Shown here: positions 1 to 31,385 of the stretch, piece by piece
How positions within the stretch are numbered: the first letter of the stretch is position 1
How the letters are laid out: every line of letters starts with the position of its first letter
Source: a virus
Strand: one strand, 5' to 3'
Length of the DNA stretch: 31,385 bases
Virus record (IMG/VR): IMGVR_UViG_3300037041_000487
Coordinates: 1-31,385 of that record
Position numbers and translations under genes: made by a program
Notes under the pieces: model-generated
The model's database searches: none
Seen by the model: the letters and a program-made list of their open reading frames with translations, nothing else
What the model was told of the DNA's origin: nothing

Positions 1-365
1 CAAGGTTATAAAAGGATTCCATTCACGGCACATCTTCTTTGCAGATTCCTCATCCTTCTTTGCCTTGTACATATCCTGCAACCCACCTGCGTTACTGCCA
101 ACGTCTGGGCAAGCAAACCAATATCTATTGAAGCGCAATATACCATTACCGTTCTTTATAGTCTGCAAGGCAAAATCTCTATCTTCTTTTAAGTTGAACT
201 CTGAGCGGTAGTTCCAATGGATCTTCTTGACGTTCATTAAGACACAAACTTCTGCAAACTTTTTATTTACTGAGTAGTTTGTTTTTTCGTGCCAAGCGTG
301 TTGCGTGTAATTTATTCCAATCATTTCAAAAGGAAGTTTCTTTGCCTTGTCTAAAATGTCTAACC
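1..365. repeat. left copy of the terminal near-repeat
   Basis: Nearly identical to 31021-31385: 13 differences in 365 bases, all at or left of position 238; 239-365 are identical. Twelve differences fall on third codon positions of the glycosyltransferase. Most likely an assembly overlap of a circular or permuted genome from a mixed population. Confidence 0.9.
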
Positions 366-3351: not shown

Positions 3352-3641
3352 AAACACAATTAGAAATTGATTCAAATGTTCTTAACGAATTAAAAGGATC
3401 TGACTTTGAATCTTGGCTTATAGTTCAACAGGCATATCGTGATTGCGCTATTAGAGAGGAAGTAATGTGCGCAGGAATGAACTTAAACACTGGCTATGTT
3501 TATATAGCACTTGAAAACGGAGTAACAATAGCTTCTTGTTTTGGACAAGGTGTTGACTTTATAGTTACCGACTTTGAAGACGGAGAGGAATTTTTCTTTG
3601 ATAGTTACGAGGAAGCATTAGAAAAACAATATCAATTATAA
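3348..3641 (+). CDS. hypothetical acidic early protein, 97 aa
   Basis: A soluble, strongly acidic protein (net negative; DFEDGEEFFFDSYEEALEKQ near the C-terminus). It has a few central cysteines and an aromatic-rich acidic end. Acidic small early proteins in phages are often inhibitors that mimic DNA or bind host enzymes, but nothing here identifies a target. Translationally coupled to the membrane protein upstream through ATGA. Confidence 0.8.
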   Translation: MKTQLEIDSNVLNELKGSDFESWLIVQQAYRDCAIREEVMCAGMNLNTGYVYIALENGVTIASCFGQGVDFIVTDFEDGEEFFFDSYEEALEKQYQL

Positions 3642-3654
3642 ACCATACAACAAA

Positions 3655-3825
3655 ATGAAAGTAGAACTAATTCAAAAAACAACGTTAACCGATATGTACT
3701 ACAAGATTGTAGTTAACGGAGAGTTTCACATGTCGTACAACGACTACGACGAAGCTGTACGCGCATACGACCGCATCAAGACAGCCATACCACGCGAAGA
3801 AGTCATCTTATCAAAAGAAATCTAA
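3655..3825 (+). CDS. hypothetical early protein, 56 aa
   Basis: A 56-codon ORF (MKVELIQKTTLTDMYYKIVV... to LSKEI) with a leader AACCATACAACAAAATG that closely resembles the leader before 5406. Predicted beta-hairpin followed by a helix (YNDYDEAVRAYDRIK), a common layout of tiny phage proteins. No function recognised. Confidence 0.7.
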   Translation: MKVELIQKTTLTDMYYKIVVNGEFHMSYNDYDEAVRAYDRIKTAIPREEVILSKEI

Positions 3826-3838
3826 AACCAAAAACAAA

Positions 3839-4069
3839 ATGAACAATGAAAAACATCTTTACAAAACACCGCTCCTATTCGAGCAAGACTACAACGAGCT
3901 TCGCGAAGCTATTATTATCACGCAAAATTACTGGGGTGATAAGAGAAATGGAACACTGGATTGGGATTCGTATATTGCCTTTCGAATTGACAAACTTGAA
4001 CGAGTACTCTACTCAATTGAGTCAACGCCTTTCAAAGAACTACCAGAACCCCCAAACGAAGAAAAGTAA
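3839..4069 (+). CDS. hypothetical early protein, 76 aa
   Basis: A soluble, mostly helical 76-residue protein (KTPLLFEQDYNELREAI near the start; ends ELPEPPNEEK). Its leader, AAACCAAAAACAAAATG, matches the early-gene pattern. A coding-like stretch in the +1 frame continues directly after its stop codon (see 4070-4205), so the true product may be about 121 residues through a frameshift. No domain recognised. Confidence 0.7.
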   Translation: MNNEKHLYKTPLLFEQDYNELREAIIITQNYWGDKRNGTLDWDSYIAFRIDKLERVLYSIESTPFKELPEPPNEEK

Positions 4070-4205
4070 CTTTGTTTGCGTTTATTCCTCAGCTAACGCG
4101 TACAACCTAACGCACAACGAGATAAGCGAGAACATTGAAAAATGTCATAAACTTTCGGAAGCGCGTTGGAACGACCAACTAATTGAATACATTTGCAACA
4201 ACTAA
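4070..4205 (+). other. coding-like tail in the +1 frame after the 4069 stop
   Basis: This stretch lacks its own start codon but reads as protein with normal phage composition (NFVCVYSSANAYN, then HNEISENIEKCHKLSEARWN, to a stop at 4203-4205) and fills a gap that would otherwise be empty. It is in the +1 frame relative to the 76-residue gene; the junction is AAG TAA C. Upstream of 4070 the same frame reads Ser/Thr/Lys-rich shadow-like sequence. Options: +1 frameshift at the stop codon, an assembly error of one base, or a decayed gene. Confidence 0.4.
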
Positions 4206-4215
4206 AATCAAAAAT

Positions 4216-4509
4216 ATGTACTGTCCAAAAATTTCTTATTGCTTTATTGGTGACGACATACGCACCTTAAACGAACAAATCAAAACAATAGCTAAAGACT
4301 TTCAAGATGAAGACAATGGCGGTTGGTTTTCAATAGACGAAAAGAACAACCTTGTATTCATTGACGAACAAGACAACCTGTATGTTATCCATTTGCGAGG
4401 TAAGTTTTGGCGCAAAGGTGAACGCGATTTTAACCTGGAGTACGTCACGCTAGAAAAGGACGGTATCTCTTTTAGCTTTGACACCGATATTTTCGACGAT
4501 CAAATATAA
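4216..4509 (+). CDS. hypothetical protein, 97 aa
   Basis: I start at the ATG at 4216, which follows ACTAAAATCAAAA, the same leader as the gene at 7014; an upstream in-frame ATG at 4183 lies inside the preceding coding stretch. The product is acidic and beta-rich (GGWFSIDEKNNLVFIDEQDN, then LRGKFWRKGERDFNLEYVTL), soluble, with no recognised domain. It ends directly before the ATG of the SSB-like gene with no gap. Confidence 0.75.
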   Translation: MYCPKISYCFIGDDIRTLNEQIKTIAKDFQDEDNGGWFSIDEKNNLVFIDEQDNLYVIHLRGKFWRKGERDFNLEYVTLEKDGISFSFDTDIFDDQI

Positions 4510-5316
4510 ATGGGTTACTTCAAAAGAATCAACGAACAATCCGACATTCACGACAGCCAGTTGCGACATATCCAAAGCGACGAAGAACTCGCTATAAAGT
4601 TCGAACAATACATTAATTCATTCAACAATAAACAAATAAACAACAACAACATGAGCATCATTGCACAACAAACAAACAACAACAGCGGAGGTCAAACAGT
4701 CCCTGCAGGAACACACGTAGCGCGCTGCTACCAAATCATTCACATCGGGACAGTTCCTGACACTTATCAAGGTGAAGATAGACTTGTCGACAAGGTTCGT
4801 TTGGTATTCGAACTACCTTTAGAAACCGCTGACTTCGGCAAAGGTGAACAACCCTTTTCAATTGGTCGCGACTTTACATTGTCGATGCACGAAAAGAGCG
4901 CGTTACGTGCCTTCGTTCAAAACTGGCTAGGCGAATCGTTAAGCGACGCTGAAGCTAACAAATTCGACATCGCTACGCTTCTTGGAAAGGAAGGAATGGT
5001 TAATGTAATGCACCGCACCGCGAACACAGGAAGAACTTACGCAGACATCAAAGGTGCGTCGCCACTTGTTAAGGGAATGAGTTGCCCGCCGTTAGTGAAT
5101 AGCGCGTTTCTTTTGGACTACGATAGTGAAGACTTCGACTTGCGCTTTAAAATGTTACCAGAATGGCTTCAAAATAAGGTGAGTTCTTCAGCTGAATTTA
5201 GCAATCGATTAGACCGCGCTGCGGATCAAATGAACAAAGCTAAATCGATGCTAGAACAAAGCGGATTAGTTGAACCAAAACAAACAAACGACGACACGGA
5301 CGATATGCCGTTCTAA
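4510..5316 (+). CDS. putative single-stranded DNA-binding protein
   Basis: A 268-residue protein. Residues 48-220 form a beta-rich core (VPAGTHVARCYQIIHIGTV, KVRLVFELPLET, FSIGRDFTLSMHEKS), like other phage SSB/DUF669-type replication proteins. The C-terminus is acidic and ends DDTDDMPF, very close to the tip of bacterial SSB (DDDIPF) that recruits replication and repair proteins. Residues 1-47 are a polar extension; the second in-frame ATG at 4651, after an ACAACAACAAC leader, would give a 221-residue form, and I cannot decide between the two. It heads the replication module. SSB assignment rests on the tip, composition and position. Confidence 0.68.
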   Translation: MGYFKRINEQSDIHDSQLRHIQSDEELAIKFEQYINSFNNKQINNNNMSIIAQQTNNNSGGQTVPAGTHVARCYQIIHIGTVPDTYQGEDRLVDKVRLVFELPLETADFGKGEQPFSIGRDFTLSMHEKSALRAFVQNWLGESLSDAEANKFDIATLLGKEGMVNVMHRTANTGRTYADIKGASPLVKGMSCPPLVNSAFLLDYDSEDFDLRFKMLPEWLQNKVSSSAEFSNRLDRAADQMNKAKSMLEQSGLVEPKQTNDDTDDMPF

Positions 5317-5336
5317 ATGAATAAGATGCTATTAAT

Positions 5337-5362
5337 GGGGGTTATCTCATACGTTAGCCCCC
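5337..5362 (+). other. hairpin between the SSB-like gene and the next gene
   Basis: GGGGGTTA (5337-5344) can pair with TAGCCCCC (5355-5362), eight pairs including one G-T, with a 10-nt loop. There is no T-run after it, so it is not a classical terminator. It may stabilise or process the mRNA upstream, or shape translation of the gene at 5406. The interval holds only a 19-codon ORF that I do not credit. Confidence 0.5.
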
Positions 5363-5405
5363 GTTATAACACTTAATGAATAATAAACCATACAATCAAA
5401 ACACA

Positions 5406-5699
5406 ATGAAAAAATTAGTAACACTTGAAAACCGCGTTGAGAAACTGTTGAAGAAGTATAAATTTCTTCGTAACGATAATAAATCACTCTGCGTAAAGGT
5501 TTGGGAACAACAGTTCGATGAACGCAAAGACATCACAAGCAACTTCTTTGCTATGTACGAAAGCGGCAAGTACGTCAGCGCGGATAACATTACACGCATC
5601 GCACGATTGGTTAAGCAATACAATCCAGAGTTACGCGGAACGAATGACAAAGACAACAAGAAGAAAGCGCAACTCATTAAACCACTATTGAAAAAATGA
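5406..5699 (+). CDS. hypothetical basic protein, 97 aa
   Basis: I choose the ATG at 5406 over 5376 because the bases between them (AAACCATACAATCAAAACAC) look like the leader before the gene at 3655. The product is basic and helical (ENRVEKLLKKYKFLRNDN at the start, a Lys-rich end), with an HTH-like middle (YVSADNITRIARLVKQ). It may bind DNA and act in regulation or replication, but no family is recognised. Its stop overlaps the next start (ATGA). Confidence 0.78.
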   Translation: MKKLVTLENRVEKLLKKYKFLRNDNKSLCVKVWEQQFDERKDITSNFFAMYESGKYVSADNITRIARLVKQYNPELRGTNDKDNKKKAQLIKPLLKK

Positions 5700-5935
5700 A
5701 TAAAGAAATATACAAGACGCCATTCGGTCGTTTAGTTAAGATTAACTTCAAGACGCTAACGAACTTCAAGACAGCGTTGAGAATCAGCGATCCAACGGCA
5801 CGTCTTTACGTCGCACACCCAGAACGAATGAGAATAAAAGACTTCAACAACATTTGCTTACACACGGGACTTTCACGCGAAGAAGTATTTAGCACCTTCA
5901 CACCTACCAAATTAATAAACGAAGAAAATGACTAA
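5696..5935 (+). CDS. hypothetical protein, 79 aa, possible HTH
   Basis: A small protein with a basic first half and a helical second half (MRIKDFNNICLHTGLSREEV), which could be a winged or plain helix-turn-helix. It is coupled on both sides: ATGA overlap with the gene before, and 8-base overlap with the DnaA-like gene after. It is probably a DNA-binding accessory of the replication module; no specific family is recognised. Confidence 0.75.
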   Translation: MNKEIYKTPFGRLVKINFKTLTNFKTALRISDPTARLYVAHPERMRIKDFNNICLHTGLSREEVFSTFTPTKLINEEND

Positions 5936-6461
5936 CGAAAAGATACGCTCTGAAATAGTCGACATGATTCCCTTTCGTCACATGGAACGCTTCGAGTTGT
6001 TATGGACGATGATAACGCCACGCTACGAAAGATTAACAGCCGAACAAATTGAAATGCAAAAGGAAATGGAGAACGAACGCGATATGTTCTGGAGCGCACT
6101 GGAAGATGTTACCTGTTCCGTGTTGGGTGTTCCTTCGCAAGCGTTGTACACGTCGACAAGAAAGCGTGAGATAGTAACCGCACGACAAATCATTTTCTTT
6201 CTTGTTCGTCCTTGTTACGTGTTGACTTTAAAAAACGTTGGCGACCGATACAAGAAAGACCACGCGACAATCCTTCACGGAATAAAGCAAGCTAGCGCAC
6301 AGGTTGAATGGGACAAATACTATCGAGCAAACGTTGAACGCATTTGTTTTTTACTTGCCGAGATAGGTTATGCTAAACCAATGAGTTTTTTTATTAAGTT
6401 TGTTGACCACGTTGAACACCAAAGAACGCTTCGTGCAAAAAGAAAATCTAAAATTAAATAA
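5928..6461 (+). CDS. DnaA domain IV (origin-binding) protein
   Basis: A 177-residue protein built around the C-terminal DNA-binding domain of DnaA (about residues 58-125). The basic loop TRKREIVTARQIIFFLV (77-93) and the signature DHATILHGIK (111-120) are clear; in DnaA these bind the 9-base DnaA box. The ATPase domain is absent. The N-terminal 57 residues and a basic C-terminus (about 150-177) are not recognised. A stand-alone domain IV could bind the phage origin and bring in the host machinery, or compete with host DnaA. I did not find a convincing DnaA-box cluster in the window. Confidence 0.88.
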   Translation: MTNEKIRSEIVDMIPFRHMERFELLWTMITPRYERLTAEQIEMQKEMENERDMFWSALEDVTCSVLGVPSQALYTSTRKREIVTARQIIFFLVRPCYVLTLKNVGDRYKKDHATILHGIKQASAQVEWDKYYRANVERICFLLAEIGYAKPMSFFIKFVDHVEHQRTLRAKRKSKIK

Positions 6462-10946: not shown

Positions 10947-11948
10947 TTATAAAATTTGTCCTTCGTGTATACGCAGGTTCTTGACGCTAAAGTAACCATT
11001 TTTTCCCAACTCCACAATAGCGAATCCATGATTGTATTTTGAATACGGGTTGTAGTCTGGAGATAACTCCGAAAGGCAACCTACACCCCAACAGGTAATA
11101 AACTTTCCGTTAGCGTCGCGCTCGTTGTGTTCCGCTGTTTGGTGGTGGTGTCCACAAAGCGCGCTTACTTTTGTTTTCATAAACAAGCCACGCGCCACGT
11201 TGACTGAAGGAAGGAATTGTTTTCCGAATTCGTGACCGTGAAAGATTGAAAGTTTACCGATGTTTAGTTTACTCTTTCCGTCAACCCATTTGATATTGTG
11301 CTTATCTAAATGACACAACGAAGCGAAGTCAAACGCGTCAATGTCGAACAACTCAGGAGCTTTCACACGCATATAACGCCAGTAGCGTTCTTCGTGGTTA
11401 CCTTCTTTGTAGTAAATGTGAGCCGTTGGAAATTGCTGTCTTAACGTGTCCACAAATTGACGCATTGCATAGAGTTCGTCCTTGAATTTTCTTTTGCGTG
11501 GATCTTTGACAAAGTCACTAATCATGTGACAGTCGAGAGCGTCCCCATTTAGAATAACTGCGTCGCACCCTTGACGAACTCCTTCGTTAATTGCAACGGT
11601 TAACGCTTCGTTGTCCTGATAAGGAATATGCACATCGCAAAGAATTAAGAACTTTGTTCCTTTCACTTCAACGTGTCTACGCTTTTTGGCGTACGACTTT
11701 GGAAGTGTGAATGGGTTCAATGGTCGTGGCTTTGCGTCAAACAATGATTTGTCGGAGGCGTGTTTCCTCTCGTAGTTTCCTTTTTGACCGCGTATAATTC
11801 GAACGAATGTTCTTGCGTGTTCTTGTGAATTATAAACTTCGGGATATTCTGCAAATAATTTCTTCGCAAGAGTTAGCGAAGGTGTTTTTTGAAACCGTGA
11901 ACAGACTTCTTCAGCTATTGTTCGAGCTGTTGTTTTCGGTGTTGCCAT
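10947..11948 (-). CDS. calcineurin-like metallophosphoesterase
   Basis: A 333-residue protein if started at the ATG at 11948 (an upstream ATG at 11975 is possible). Residues 1-90 contain an HTH-like N-terminal domain. The catalytic domain has all five metal motifs of the family in order: CDVHIPY, NGDALD, GNHEE, HGHE and CGHHH. These hold a two-metal centre that cuts phosphoester bonds. The substrate is unknown; phage members are variously tied to DNA repair or nucleotide turnover. It is placed among lysis genes and overlaps the holin-like gene by 38 bases. Confidence 0.9.
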   Translation of the reverse strand: MATPKTTARTIAEEVCSRFQKTPSLTLAKKLFAEYPEVYNSQEHARTFVRIIRGQKGNYERKHASDKSLFDAKPRPLNPFTLPKSYAKKRRHVEVKGTKFLILCDVHIPYQDNEALTVAINEGVRQGCDAVILNGDALDCHMISDFVKDPRKRKFKDELYAMRQFVDTLRQQFPTAHIYYKEGNHEERYWRYMRVKAPELFDIDAFDFASLCHLDKHNIKWVDGKSKLNIGKLSIFHGHEFGKQFLPSVNVARGLFMKTKVSALCGHHHQTAEHNERDANGKFITCWGVGCLSELSPDYNPYSKYNHGFAIVELGKNGYFSVKNLRIHEGQIL

Positions 11949-12165
11949 TCTTTGTTTTTTTAGTGAACTTTTCAATCACAGTACCACCGAATAAACCTGC
12001 TGTTAACAATGCGAGTGTGTCGTACATCGCAATCGGACAGTCATATTCAGAAAACGTAGCGATGTAACTTAAAAGAATCAAATTTGTTACAACAAATATA
12101 GCAATAACTCGCTTGCTCGATACCTTCGAACAATTACTTAACAAAGAGTTGAACCAGTCTTTCAT
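11911..12165 (-). CDS. putative holin, two membrane segments
   Basis: An 84-residue protein with two membrane segments (VIAIFVVTNLILLSYIATF, about 20-38, and YDTLALLTAGLFGGTVI, about 48-64) and a charged C-terminal tail (KFTKKTKNGNTENNSSNN). Size and layout fit class II holins that release the endolysin. It lies two genes after the endolysin in the same leftward unit and overlaps the XhlA-like gene (ATGA). Confidence 0.7.
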   Translation of the reverse strand: MKDWFNSLLSNCSKVSSKRVIAIFVVTNLILLSYIATFSEYDCPIAMYDTLALLTAGLFGGTVIEKFTKKTKNGNTENNSSNNS

Positions 12166-30151: not shown

Positions 30152-30946
30152 TTAATCTAAACCTACAAATGCTTTTAATGGATAAAATATCAGCGAGTTT
30201 CTGTAACCGCCTTCGTGCGTTGGAATGATTGGCGTAACTCCGTGCAGGTTTTTCCATGCTGGGTAAACGAGTATTGAATTGTCCTGTTGTCCTATCGTCG
30301 CTCCGTAGTCTGGTATGTTTAAGTCACCACCTTTTGAGTTGTGCTTCTTGCATATTATTACGTTTACTGCTCCGACTATATTACCAACGTCCCTGTGATA
30401 AGGTGCGCTTATGTTATAGTTTGAAATTGAGGAAGTAAACAAGTTTGCAAATCTCCACTTCTTTTGTACTTGCTCGAATAACTTTACTTGCTTTTCGTGT
30501 TGGTGTGGTAGTATTTCTTTTATTAGTTGTTCGCTTTCCGTTGCTAACATCAACATTGCTTTGACAAAAGTGTTGGCGGATTTTTGTAAATGAACACTAG
30601 ACCTTGACGCGTATGGTCTTTGCATATGTGGTTTAGGTGGTATTGAACCTAAAATACAACTGTATTGATGAACTTCATTTTTATATTTCCAAATACCTTT
30701 TTTTTCATCAAAACCATCCACTTGCCTTCTGTTTAACATTGACTTTGGAACATTTTTACTTCTTAGTTGTTCATTAGCAAGGTCTGCCAGTTTACACATA
30801 TTATCTGGCATCTTGTTAAGATAAAAACCAATTGCTTCGCCTTCTGAGTAGAAGATACAATCCTCCGTTACATTAGGTTCAATGTATTCACAGATATCAC
30901 TAACTTTTTTGTTGTGCTGAACAGGTATTAAATCAATTCGTTTCAT
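30152..30946 (-). CDS. TET/JBP-family Fe(II)/2-oxoglutarate dioxygenase
   Basis: A 264-residue protein with the full set of TET/JBP active-site residues in the C-terminal half: HRD (H184, D186) in APYHRDVGNIVGAVNV, the GGDLNIPDYGAT block (207-218), distal H235 in NLHGVTPI, and R249 in GYRNSLIFYPL for 2-oxoglutarate. Fe(II) is held by H184, D186 and H235. Such enzymes oxidise the 5-methyl group of cytosine (TET) or thymine (JBP); phage members act on phage DNA before glycosylation. The first 180 residues are helical and less conserved. Its start overlaps the glycosyltransferase stop (ATGA), indicating joint translation. Substrate base is not shown by sequence. Confidence 0.88.
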   Translation of the reverse strand: MKRIDLIPVQHNKKVSDICEYIEPNVTEDCIFYSEGEAIGFYLNKMPDNMCKLADLANEQLRSKNVPKSMLNRRQVDGFDEKKGIWKYKNEVHQYSCILGSIPPKPHMQRPYASRSSVHLQKSANTFVKAMLMLATESEQLIKEILPHQHEKQVKLFEQVQKKWRFANLFTSSISNYNISAPYHRDVGNIVGAVNVIICKKHNSKGGDLNIPDYGATIGQQDNSILVYPAWKNLHGVTPIIPTHEGGYRNSLIFYPLKAFVGLD

Positions 30947-31385
30947 TTTACTATTTTTTTATAATGAGTAGCCAGTGCTTTGATGTCCGTCTTCATATCT
31001 ACGCGCTCACCTTTTCTTTGCAAGGTTACAAAAGGATTCCATTCACGACACATCTTTTTTGCAGATTCCTCATCCTTCTTTGCTTTGTACATATCCTGCA
31101 ACCCACCTGCGTTACTGCCAACGTCGGGACAAGCAAACCAATATCTATTGAAGCGTAATATACCATTACCATTCTTTATCGTCTGCAAGGCAAAGTCCCT
31201 GTCTTCTTTTAAGTTGAACTCTGAGCGGTAGTTCCAATGGATCTTCTTGACGTTCATCAAGACACAAACTTCTGCAAACTTTTTATTTACTGAGTAGTTT
31301 GTTTTTTCGTGCCAAGCGTGTTGCGTGTAATTTATTCCAATCATTTCAAAAGGAAGTTTCTTTGCCTTGTCTAAAATGTCTAACC
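30943..31385 (-). CDS. TET-associated glycosyltransferase, 5' part cut by the window edge
   Basis: The second copy of the glycosyltransferase end: the frame is open to the right edge and ends at 30943, overlapping the TET start. It covers FEMIGINYTQHAWHEK, VCVLMNVKKIHWNYRSEF, FNRYWFACPDVGSNAGG and the C-terminus DIKALATHYKKIVK. It overlaps the left copy for 365 bases at 96% identity. If the ends join, the two parts are one gene; the first 82 residues then come from the left copy. Confidence 0.75.
   Translation of the reverse strand, partial: LDILDKAKKLPFEMIGINYTQHAWHEKTNYSVNKKFAEVCVLMNVKKIHWNYRSEFNLKEDRDFALQTIKNGNGILRFNRYWFACPDVGSNAGGLQDMYKAKKDEESAKKMCREWNPFVTLQRKGERVDMKTDIKALATHYKKIVK
31021..31385. 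repeat. right copy of the terminal near-repeat
   Basis: Counterpart of 1-365. Joining at this overlap gives a genome of about 31,020 bases with an unbroken ParB-like / glycosyltransferase / TET-like operon. Confidence 0.9.

Follow-up and report, generated by a model that had tools for sequence, protein, structure and literature searches.

The window analysed here, a viral stretch of 31,385 nt (IMG/VR record IMGVR_UViG_3300037041_000487), carries three consecutive minus-strand genes for a ParB-like protein, a TAGT-type glycosyltransferase and a TET/JBP-type dioxygenase, and raises the question of what these proteins do together and on which base they act. A preliminary description made from the sequence alone had read them as a co-translated cassette for sugar-modified phage DNA. 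Its three family assignments held in Pfam searches, where all scores were above the curated cut-offs: 43.6 bits against 34.9 for Tet_JBP (PF12851), 58.2 against 27.5 for TAGT (PF20691, with the merged 243-aa protein) and 34.3 against 26.3 for ParB_N.

The two ends of the window turned out to be the same DNA. They share 365 nt that differ at 13 sites, 12 of these at a single codon position in the TAGT reading frame, so the genome is probably closed or terminally redundant and assembled from two coexisting strains, and a closed map of ~31,020 nt fits. The genes run from 1232 to 651 (ParB-like), from 654 to the contig start and then from 31020 to 30943 (TAGT), and from 30946 to 30152 (TET/JBP). 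Because positions 1-365 are the same DNA as 31021-31385, TAGT is a single 243-aa gene on the closed map; the preliminary description, which gave it 1-654 plus 30943-31385, had counted 365 nt twice. In relatives the intact gene has the merged length (gap of 724 nt), and intact 243-aa homologues were found in loci L003 and L016 (95% identical). Plain end-to-end joining of the contig was rejected, as it breaks the TAGT frame and leaves a truncated product of 219 aa.

Both of the ATGA junctions described earlier are real. In related loci the same −3 offset recurred at 77 of 93 junctions between ParB and the middle gene and at 56 of 93 junctions between the middle gene and TET, indicating that the overlaps are not due to chance. 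Likely co-translation of the three genes is supported. The description of the source as a 31-kb flavobacterial siphophage is plausible, since a tape-measure gene is present and the nearest TerL proteins are those of Flavobacterium phage 11b (47%) and Cellulophaga phage phi10:1 (46%); it is probably a small phage with a host among the Flavobacteria. Elsewhere in the window, a calcineurin-type phosphoesterase lies close to the lysozyme gene (10947-11975, minus strand), and a protein at 5928-6461 (plus strand) has a DnaA C-terminal HTH-type domain.

Table 1 Features of the cassette and its surroundings, in window coordinates
Feature	Position	Strand	Basis
Redundant contig end, same DNA as 31021-31385	1-365		96.4% end overlap
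TAGT 5' part, residues 1-218	1-654	−	Pfam TAGT 1.4e-15 on merged protein; end overlap
ATGA overlap, ParB stop / TAGT start	651-654	−	TCAT on plus strand
ParB-like protein, 193 aa, ParB_N at residues 5-92	651-1232	−	Pfam ParB_N 2.4e-8, above cut-off
Conserved RNA-like element directly upstream of ParB	1382-1463	−	Covariation
TET/JBP-type Fe(II)/2-oxoglutarate dioxygenase, 264 aa	30152-30946	−	Pfam Tet_JBP 2.4e-11, above cut-off
Dioxygenase active site, R249	30200-30202	−	Alignment
Dioxygenase active site, H235	30242-30244	−	Alignment
Dioxygenase active site, D186	30389-30391	−	Alignment
Dioxygenase active site, H184	30395-30397	−	Alignment
ATGA overlap, TAGT stop / TET start	30943-30946	−	TCAT on plus strand
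TAGT 3' part; forms, together with 1-654, a single 243-aa protein when the map is closed	30943-31385	−	Intact homologues

The active site of the dioxygenase is preserved as the preliminary description had stated: the HxD...H Fe(II) triad and the 2OG arginine (H184, D186, H235 and R249) are present and invariant across 43 aligned relatives, as is N189. The profile search proposed at that time as a check placed the enzyme inside the TET/JBP family, because, in addition to the Pfam match, a TET profile that included actinophage TETs detected human TET2 in the PDB (1.2e-4), with Naegleria Tet at 0.04-0.06. The single sequence gave no PDB match by phmmer, and no relatives of the TET were found in GTDB genomes. 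The AlphaFold model (pLDDT 65) is poor in the core, and its top Foldseek matches, which include CcTet, NgTet and TET2, are therefore only supportive. We know of no biochemistry for this TET clade; to our knowledge, all phage TETs studied by experiment so far act on 5-methylcytosine and the characterised TAGTs act on hmC. The PHROG label of the dioxygenase, 'queuine tRNA-ribosyltransferase' (phrog_6059), was discarded as it is contradicted by Pfam, by the active-site residues and by the PDB profile. The same label is attached to TET/JBP-like dioxygenases of many RefSeq phages (e.g., L086 6001-6786, L088 855-1787) and, like 'DNA methylase' on the ParB-like gene of Prochlorococcus phage MED4-117, is likely a propagated misannotation.

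The glycosyltransferase carries a DDD motif at residues 76-78 (about 421-429), and D77, D78 and D158 are invariant in its relatives. A TAGT profile found no match in the PDB; the homologue from L003, 95% identical, was modelled at pLDDT 86 and adopts a GT-A fold, for which the nearest structures in Foldseek were B4GALNT1 and LH3. As for the third protein, we looked in Pfam for the HTH and dimerisation domains of canonical ParB and found ParB_N alone, and we therefore call the protein ParB-like and do not file it as a partition protein. Towards its N-terminus it is similar to the ParB half of ParB-methyltransferase proteins from phages, and it contains an NTP-box-like motif, GGNMR (residues 55-59, about 1056-1070), in which G56 and N57 are conserved. 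A C-terminal motif, DYSILD...KAIQIEF...LVKxWR, is likewise conserved across 86 relatives. A survey of the ParB-CTPase fold reported that mutation of the box arginine abolishes NTP binding, and that in phages the fold also occurs fused to DNA methyltransferases (PMC12704722).

When related loci were compared, the middle gene proved to occupy an exchangeable slot. We recruited 80 IMG/VR loci first with the window TET, and further ones with the TET profile and with TAGT. In the 100 non-redundant IMG/VR loci that have ParB upstream, the order ParB-X-TET was constant while X varied: the slot held TAGT in 56, an FkbM-type methyltransferase in 32, sets of ADDT (amino-acid:DNA-transferase) and P-loop genes in nine and a 301-aa protein without an assigned family in two, and one was not classified; these counts are biased by recruitment via TET and TAGT and are not population frequencies. 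The ADDT/P-loop sets optionally include GATase, GNAT, FAD-type or PALP-like genes. ADDT was above the Pfam cut-off, and the P-loop proteins of the slot show weak matches to known DNA kinases; the matches to actinophage kinases were obtained in a four-sequence database, with E-values that are not comparable with the others, and the c2 type was unmatched. In L145, the slot (3577-6014) combines a PALP-like gene with a single 510-aa ORF that contains ADDT and a P-loop region. The 301-aa gene, a candidate tailoring enzyme, is located at 5099-6004 in L109, where it has no Pfam match, and at 1790-2695 in L132.

The exchange has occurred repeatedly, as TETs up to 97% identical are accompanied by different slot genes. 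In a quick tree built from 91 TETs, the three main slot classes require no fewer than 21 changes, where two would suffice; some branches of this tree are weak, and the starred branches alone force nine TAGT changes and ten FkbM changes. For example, L060 (TAGT) and L149 (FkbM) are 96.6% identical in TET and 93.2% identical in ParB. The TETs of L023 (TAGT) and L125 (GATase, GNAT, ADDT and P-loop) are 92.8% identical and those of L019 (TAGT) and L028 (ADDT-like and P-loop) 94.7% identical, and in each of these two pairs only 2 of 90 residues differ in the active-site segment. The relatives thus hold on to ParB and TET and exchange the tailoring enzyme. According to a literature check that was not exhaustive, two things are new: a large metagenomic phage group in which ParB-X-TET is a fixed chassis whose slot has been exchanged repeatedly, and FkbM as a slot enzyme. 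The preliminary reading of the cassette stands in its DNA-modifying role, which is supported, but it had missed the wider distribution, the exchangeable middle gene and the fact that ParB-TET was already annotated in actinophages.

How might such a cassette work? We think that it probably carries out post-replicative DNA hypermodification, and from the genes and their conservation we infer the enzymatic activity, the thymine substrate, the sugar, the role of ParB and the protection as follows. The dioxygenase would hydroxylate a pyrimidine of the phage DNA at its 5-methyl group; the base is most likely thymine, which would become 5-hydroxymethyluracil (5hmU). The TAGT, as a GT-A glycosyltransferase, would then move a sugar from a nucleotide-sugar donor to the hydroxymethyl group, and the product would be a glycosylated thymine resembling base J. 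The ParB-like protein would probably be an adaptor that binds DNA under the control of an NTP switch and guides the enzymes to DNA or along it, and the modified base may shield the phage DNA against host nucleases. Swapping of the slot among glycosyl, methyl and amino-acyl chemistry would alter the final base and leave the first step unchanged. The chances seem to us evenly balanced that the group as a whole is a plug-in system, in which a ParB-TET chassis makes 5hmU by oxidation of T and sugar, methyl and amino-acyl enzymes are swapped in the slot, base-J-like glycosylated thymine being among its products. If this is the case, FkbM would represent a new DNA-base tailoring activity, producing for instance an O-methylated hydroxymethyl base. 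The slots supply candidate DNA-modifying enzymes, the FkbM-type methyltransferase among them, and the swap pairs, with TETs 93-97% identical and different tailoring genes, amount to a natural experiment in fast change of DNA armour with the first step kept.

Judging from gene content, thymine is the likelier substrate than cytosine. No C5-methyltransferase (PF00145) was found in the window; among relatives, it was found in 8 of 51 records and in 3 of 20 contigs of at least 28 kb, mostly kilobases from the cassette. A thymidylate-synthase-like hydroxymethylase (PF00303) was found in none of 37 records (the window and 36 relatives), which makes replicative formation of hmU unlikely. ADDT is absent from the window, and ADDT/kinase sets fill the slots of nine sister loci. 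ADDT and 5-hmU DNA kinases, so named in Pfam, reportedly (Lee 2018/2022) act in thymidine hypermodification starting from 5-hydroxymethyluracil. Since these pathways start from 5hmU and the window lacks a C5-methyltransferase, thymine is favoured; likewise, a near-identical TET that feeds both ADDT and TAGT would most simply make the same base, 5hmU, for both.

The alternative that survives best, although we regard it as unlikely, is a cytosine route, in which a methyltransferase of the host, or one that escaped detection, makes 5-methylcytosine, the TET turns this into 5hmC and the TAGT glycosylates it. The combination of TET, TAGT and C5-methyltransferase is known by experiment, reportedly from the work of Burke 2021 on phage TETs and Pyle 2024 on TAGTs, where it acts on 5-methylcytosine, and the original prediction is said to be that of Iyer 2013. 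Two papers likewise summarise phage TETs as acting on 5mC and TAGTs on hmC (PMC13216743, PMC12730594), and the three-enzyme combination is summarised in PMC12730594. In addition, the nearest solved relatives of the window enzyme are 5mC TETs, and a host methyltransferase could provide the 5mC. One divergent relative, L166, has a short C5-methyltransferase-like gene (4771-5430) directly before ParB-TAGT-TET, and its TET departs from the others near the active site, at two places that are otherwise conserved (HVD, GGCT); L166 is a possible 5mC-using branch, known from one example, and some members may accordingly use 5mC. What speaks against the cytosine route for the window is that the C5-methyltransferase is missing from it and from 17 of the 20 contigs of at least 28 kb, and is usually kilobases off where present, and that near-identical TETs serve ADDT/P-loop slots, whose enzymes are of the hmU-pathway kind. 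The proposed oxidation of thymine is open to a direct test with three small proteins, which would ask whether a phage TET hydroxylates thymine in a JBP-like manner without a methyltransferase partner.

A role of the dioxygenase in gene regulation or on host DNA, combined with a TAGT target other than DNA such as a virion protein or host glycans, is quite improbable. Phage glycosyltransferases can indeed modify virions (PMC12619734), but this TAGT is coupled by overlap to the TET, ADDT sets replace it at the same place, and distant cassettes combine TET with an annotated hmU kinase and ADDT. That the genes are degenerate or non-functional remnants can hardly be reconciled with the intact frames, the invariant active sites and end-overlap differences lying nearly all at one codon position.

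Cassettes of this kind are already known, since ParB-TET cassettes have been annotated and published in actinophages. ParB-TET-ADDT-kinase cassettes, among them those of Tonitrus (PMC11955845) and CaiB (PMC9302106), were described as probably serving thymidine hypermodification or nucleotide modification, and the CaiB paper noted the 4-bp overlaps. As in the window, the Gordonia phages CaiB and Wooper, Rhodococcus phage Tonitrus and Mycobacterium phage LilMcDreamy have neighbouring ParB-like and TET/JBP genes near the terminase, often with 4-nt overlaps and with adjoining tailoring enzymes. However, their TETs are only 24-27% identical to that of the window, and ADDT, with or without a kinase, follows TET, whereas in the window one TAGT lies between ParB and TET. 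Like the window, Arthrobacter phage Altadena has ParB, TET and a TAGT that exceeds the Pfam cut-off, but in the order ParB-TET-TAGT-deacetylase (the deacetylase being predicted) with an extra small ORF and a TET 20% identical to the window's.

Closer TETs, about 50% identical, were found in the Prochlorococcus phages MED4-117 and MED4-184 (P-HS2); MED4-117 shares the ParB-X-TET order but has an FkbM methyltransferase as X instead of TAGT. In the flavobacterial Nonlabens phage P12024L (35.6 kb), a TET/JBP gene adjoins TAGT (37% to that of the window); unlike in the window, TET precedes TAGT, no ParB-like gene is annotated alongside, and an N6/N4 DNA methylase follows. The predicted logic of T hydroxylation and subsequent glycosylation is the same as that of kinetoplastid base J (JBP and a glucosyltransferase), although that system is eukaryotic with other partner genes and the use of thymine in the window is a prediction. 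The base J pathway, hydroxylation of T in DNA by JBP and then glucosyl transfer, is outlined in PMC12730594. TAGT homologues also occur alone: one survey lists solitary ones of undefined function in 288 of 753 phage genomes (PMC13216743).

Directly upstream of ParB, we observed a conserved RNA-like element that consists of an H-type pseudoknot, in which the hairpin loop pairs downstream, and a hairpin, with the core ACTTGC..A.ACCA.TGCTTGGA.CG followed by a polypyrimidine tract. Base pairing was maintained in 90.7% of cells, with double-sided changes in 45 cells compared with 14.7 in shuffles. Neither the whole window nor the element matched Rfam at gathering thresholds, and a search with the RNA stretch alone gave two weak matches far under the family cut-offs. 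A 56-aa ORF inside the stretch was rejected, as 12 of 80 loci lack its start codon, the codon bias of substitutions is weak and the base pairing covaries. The element is present in 101 IMG/VR stretches (including L173, L188, L207, L219 and L243), and TET is present in just 3 of the 80 fetched loci that carry it, which rules it out as a part of the cassette and makes it a feature of the lineage.
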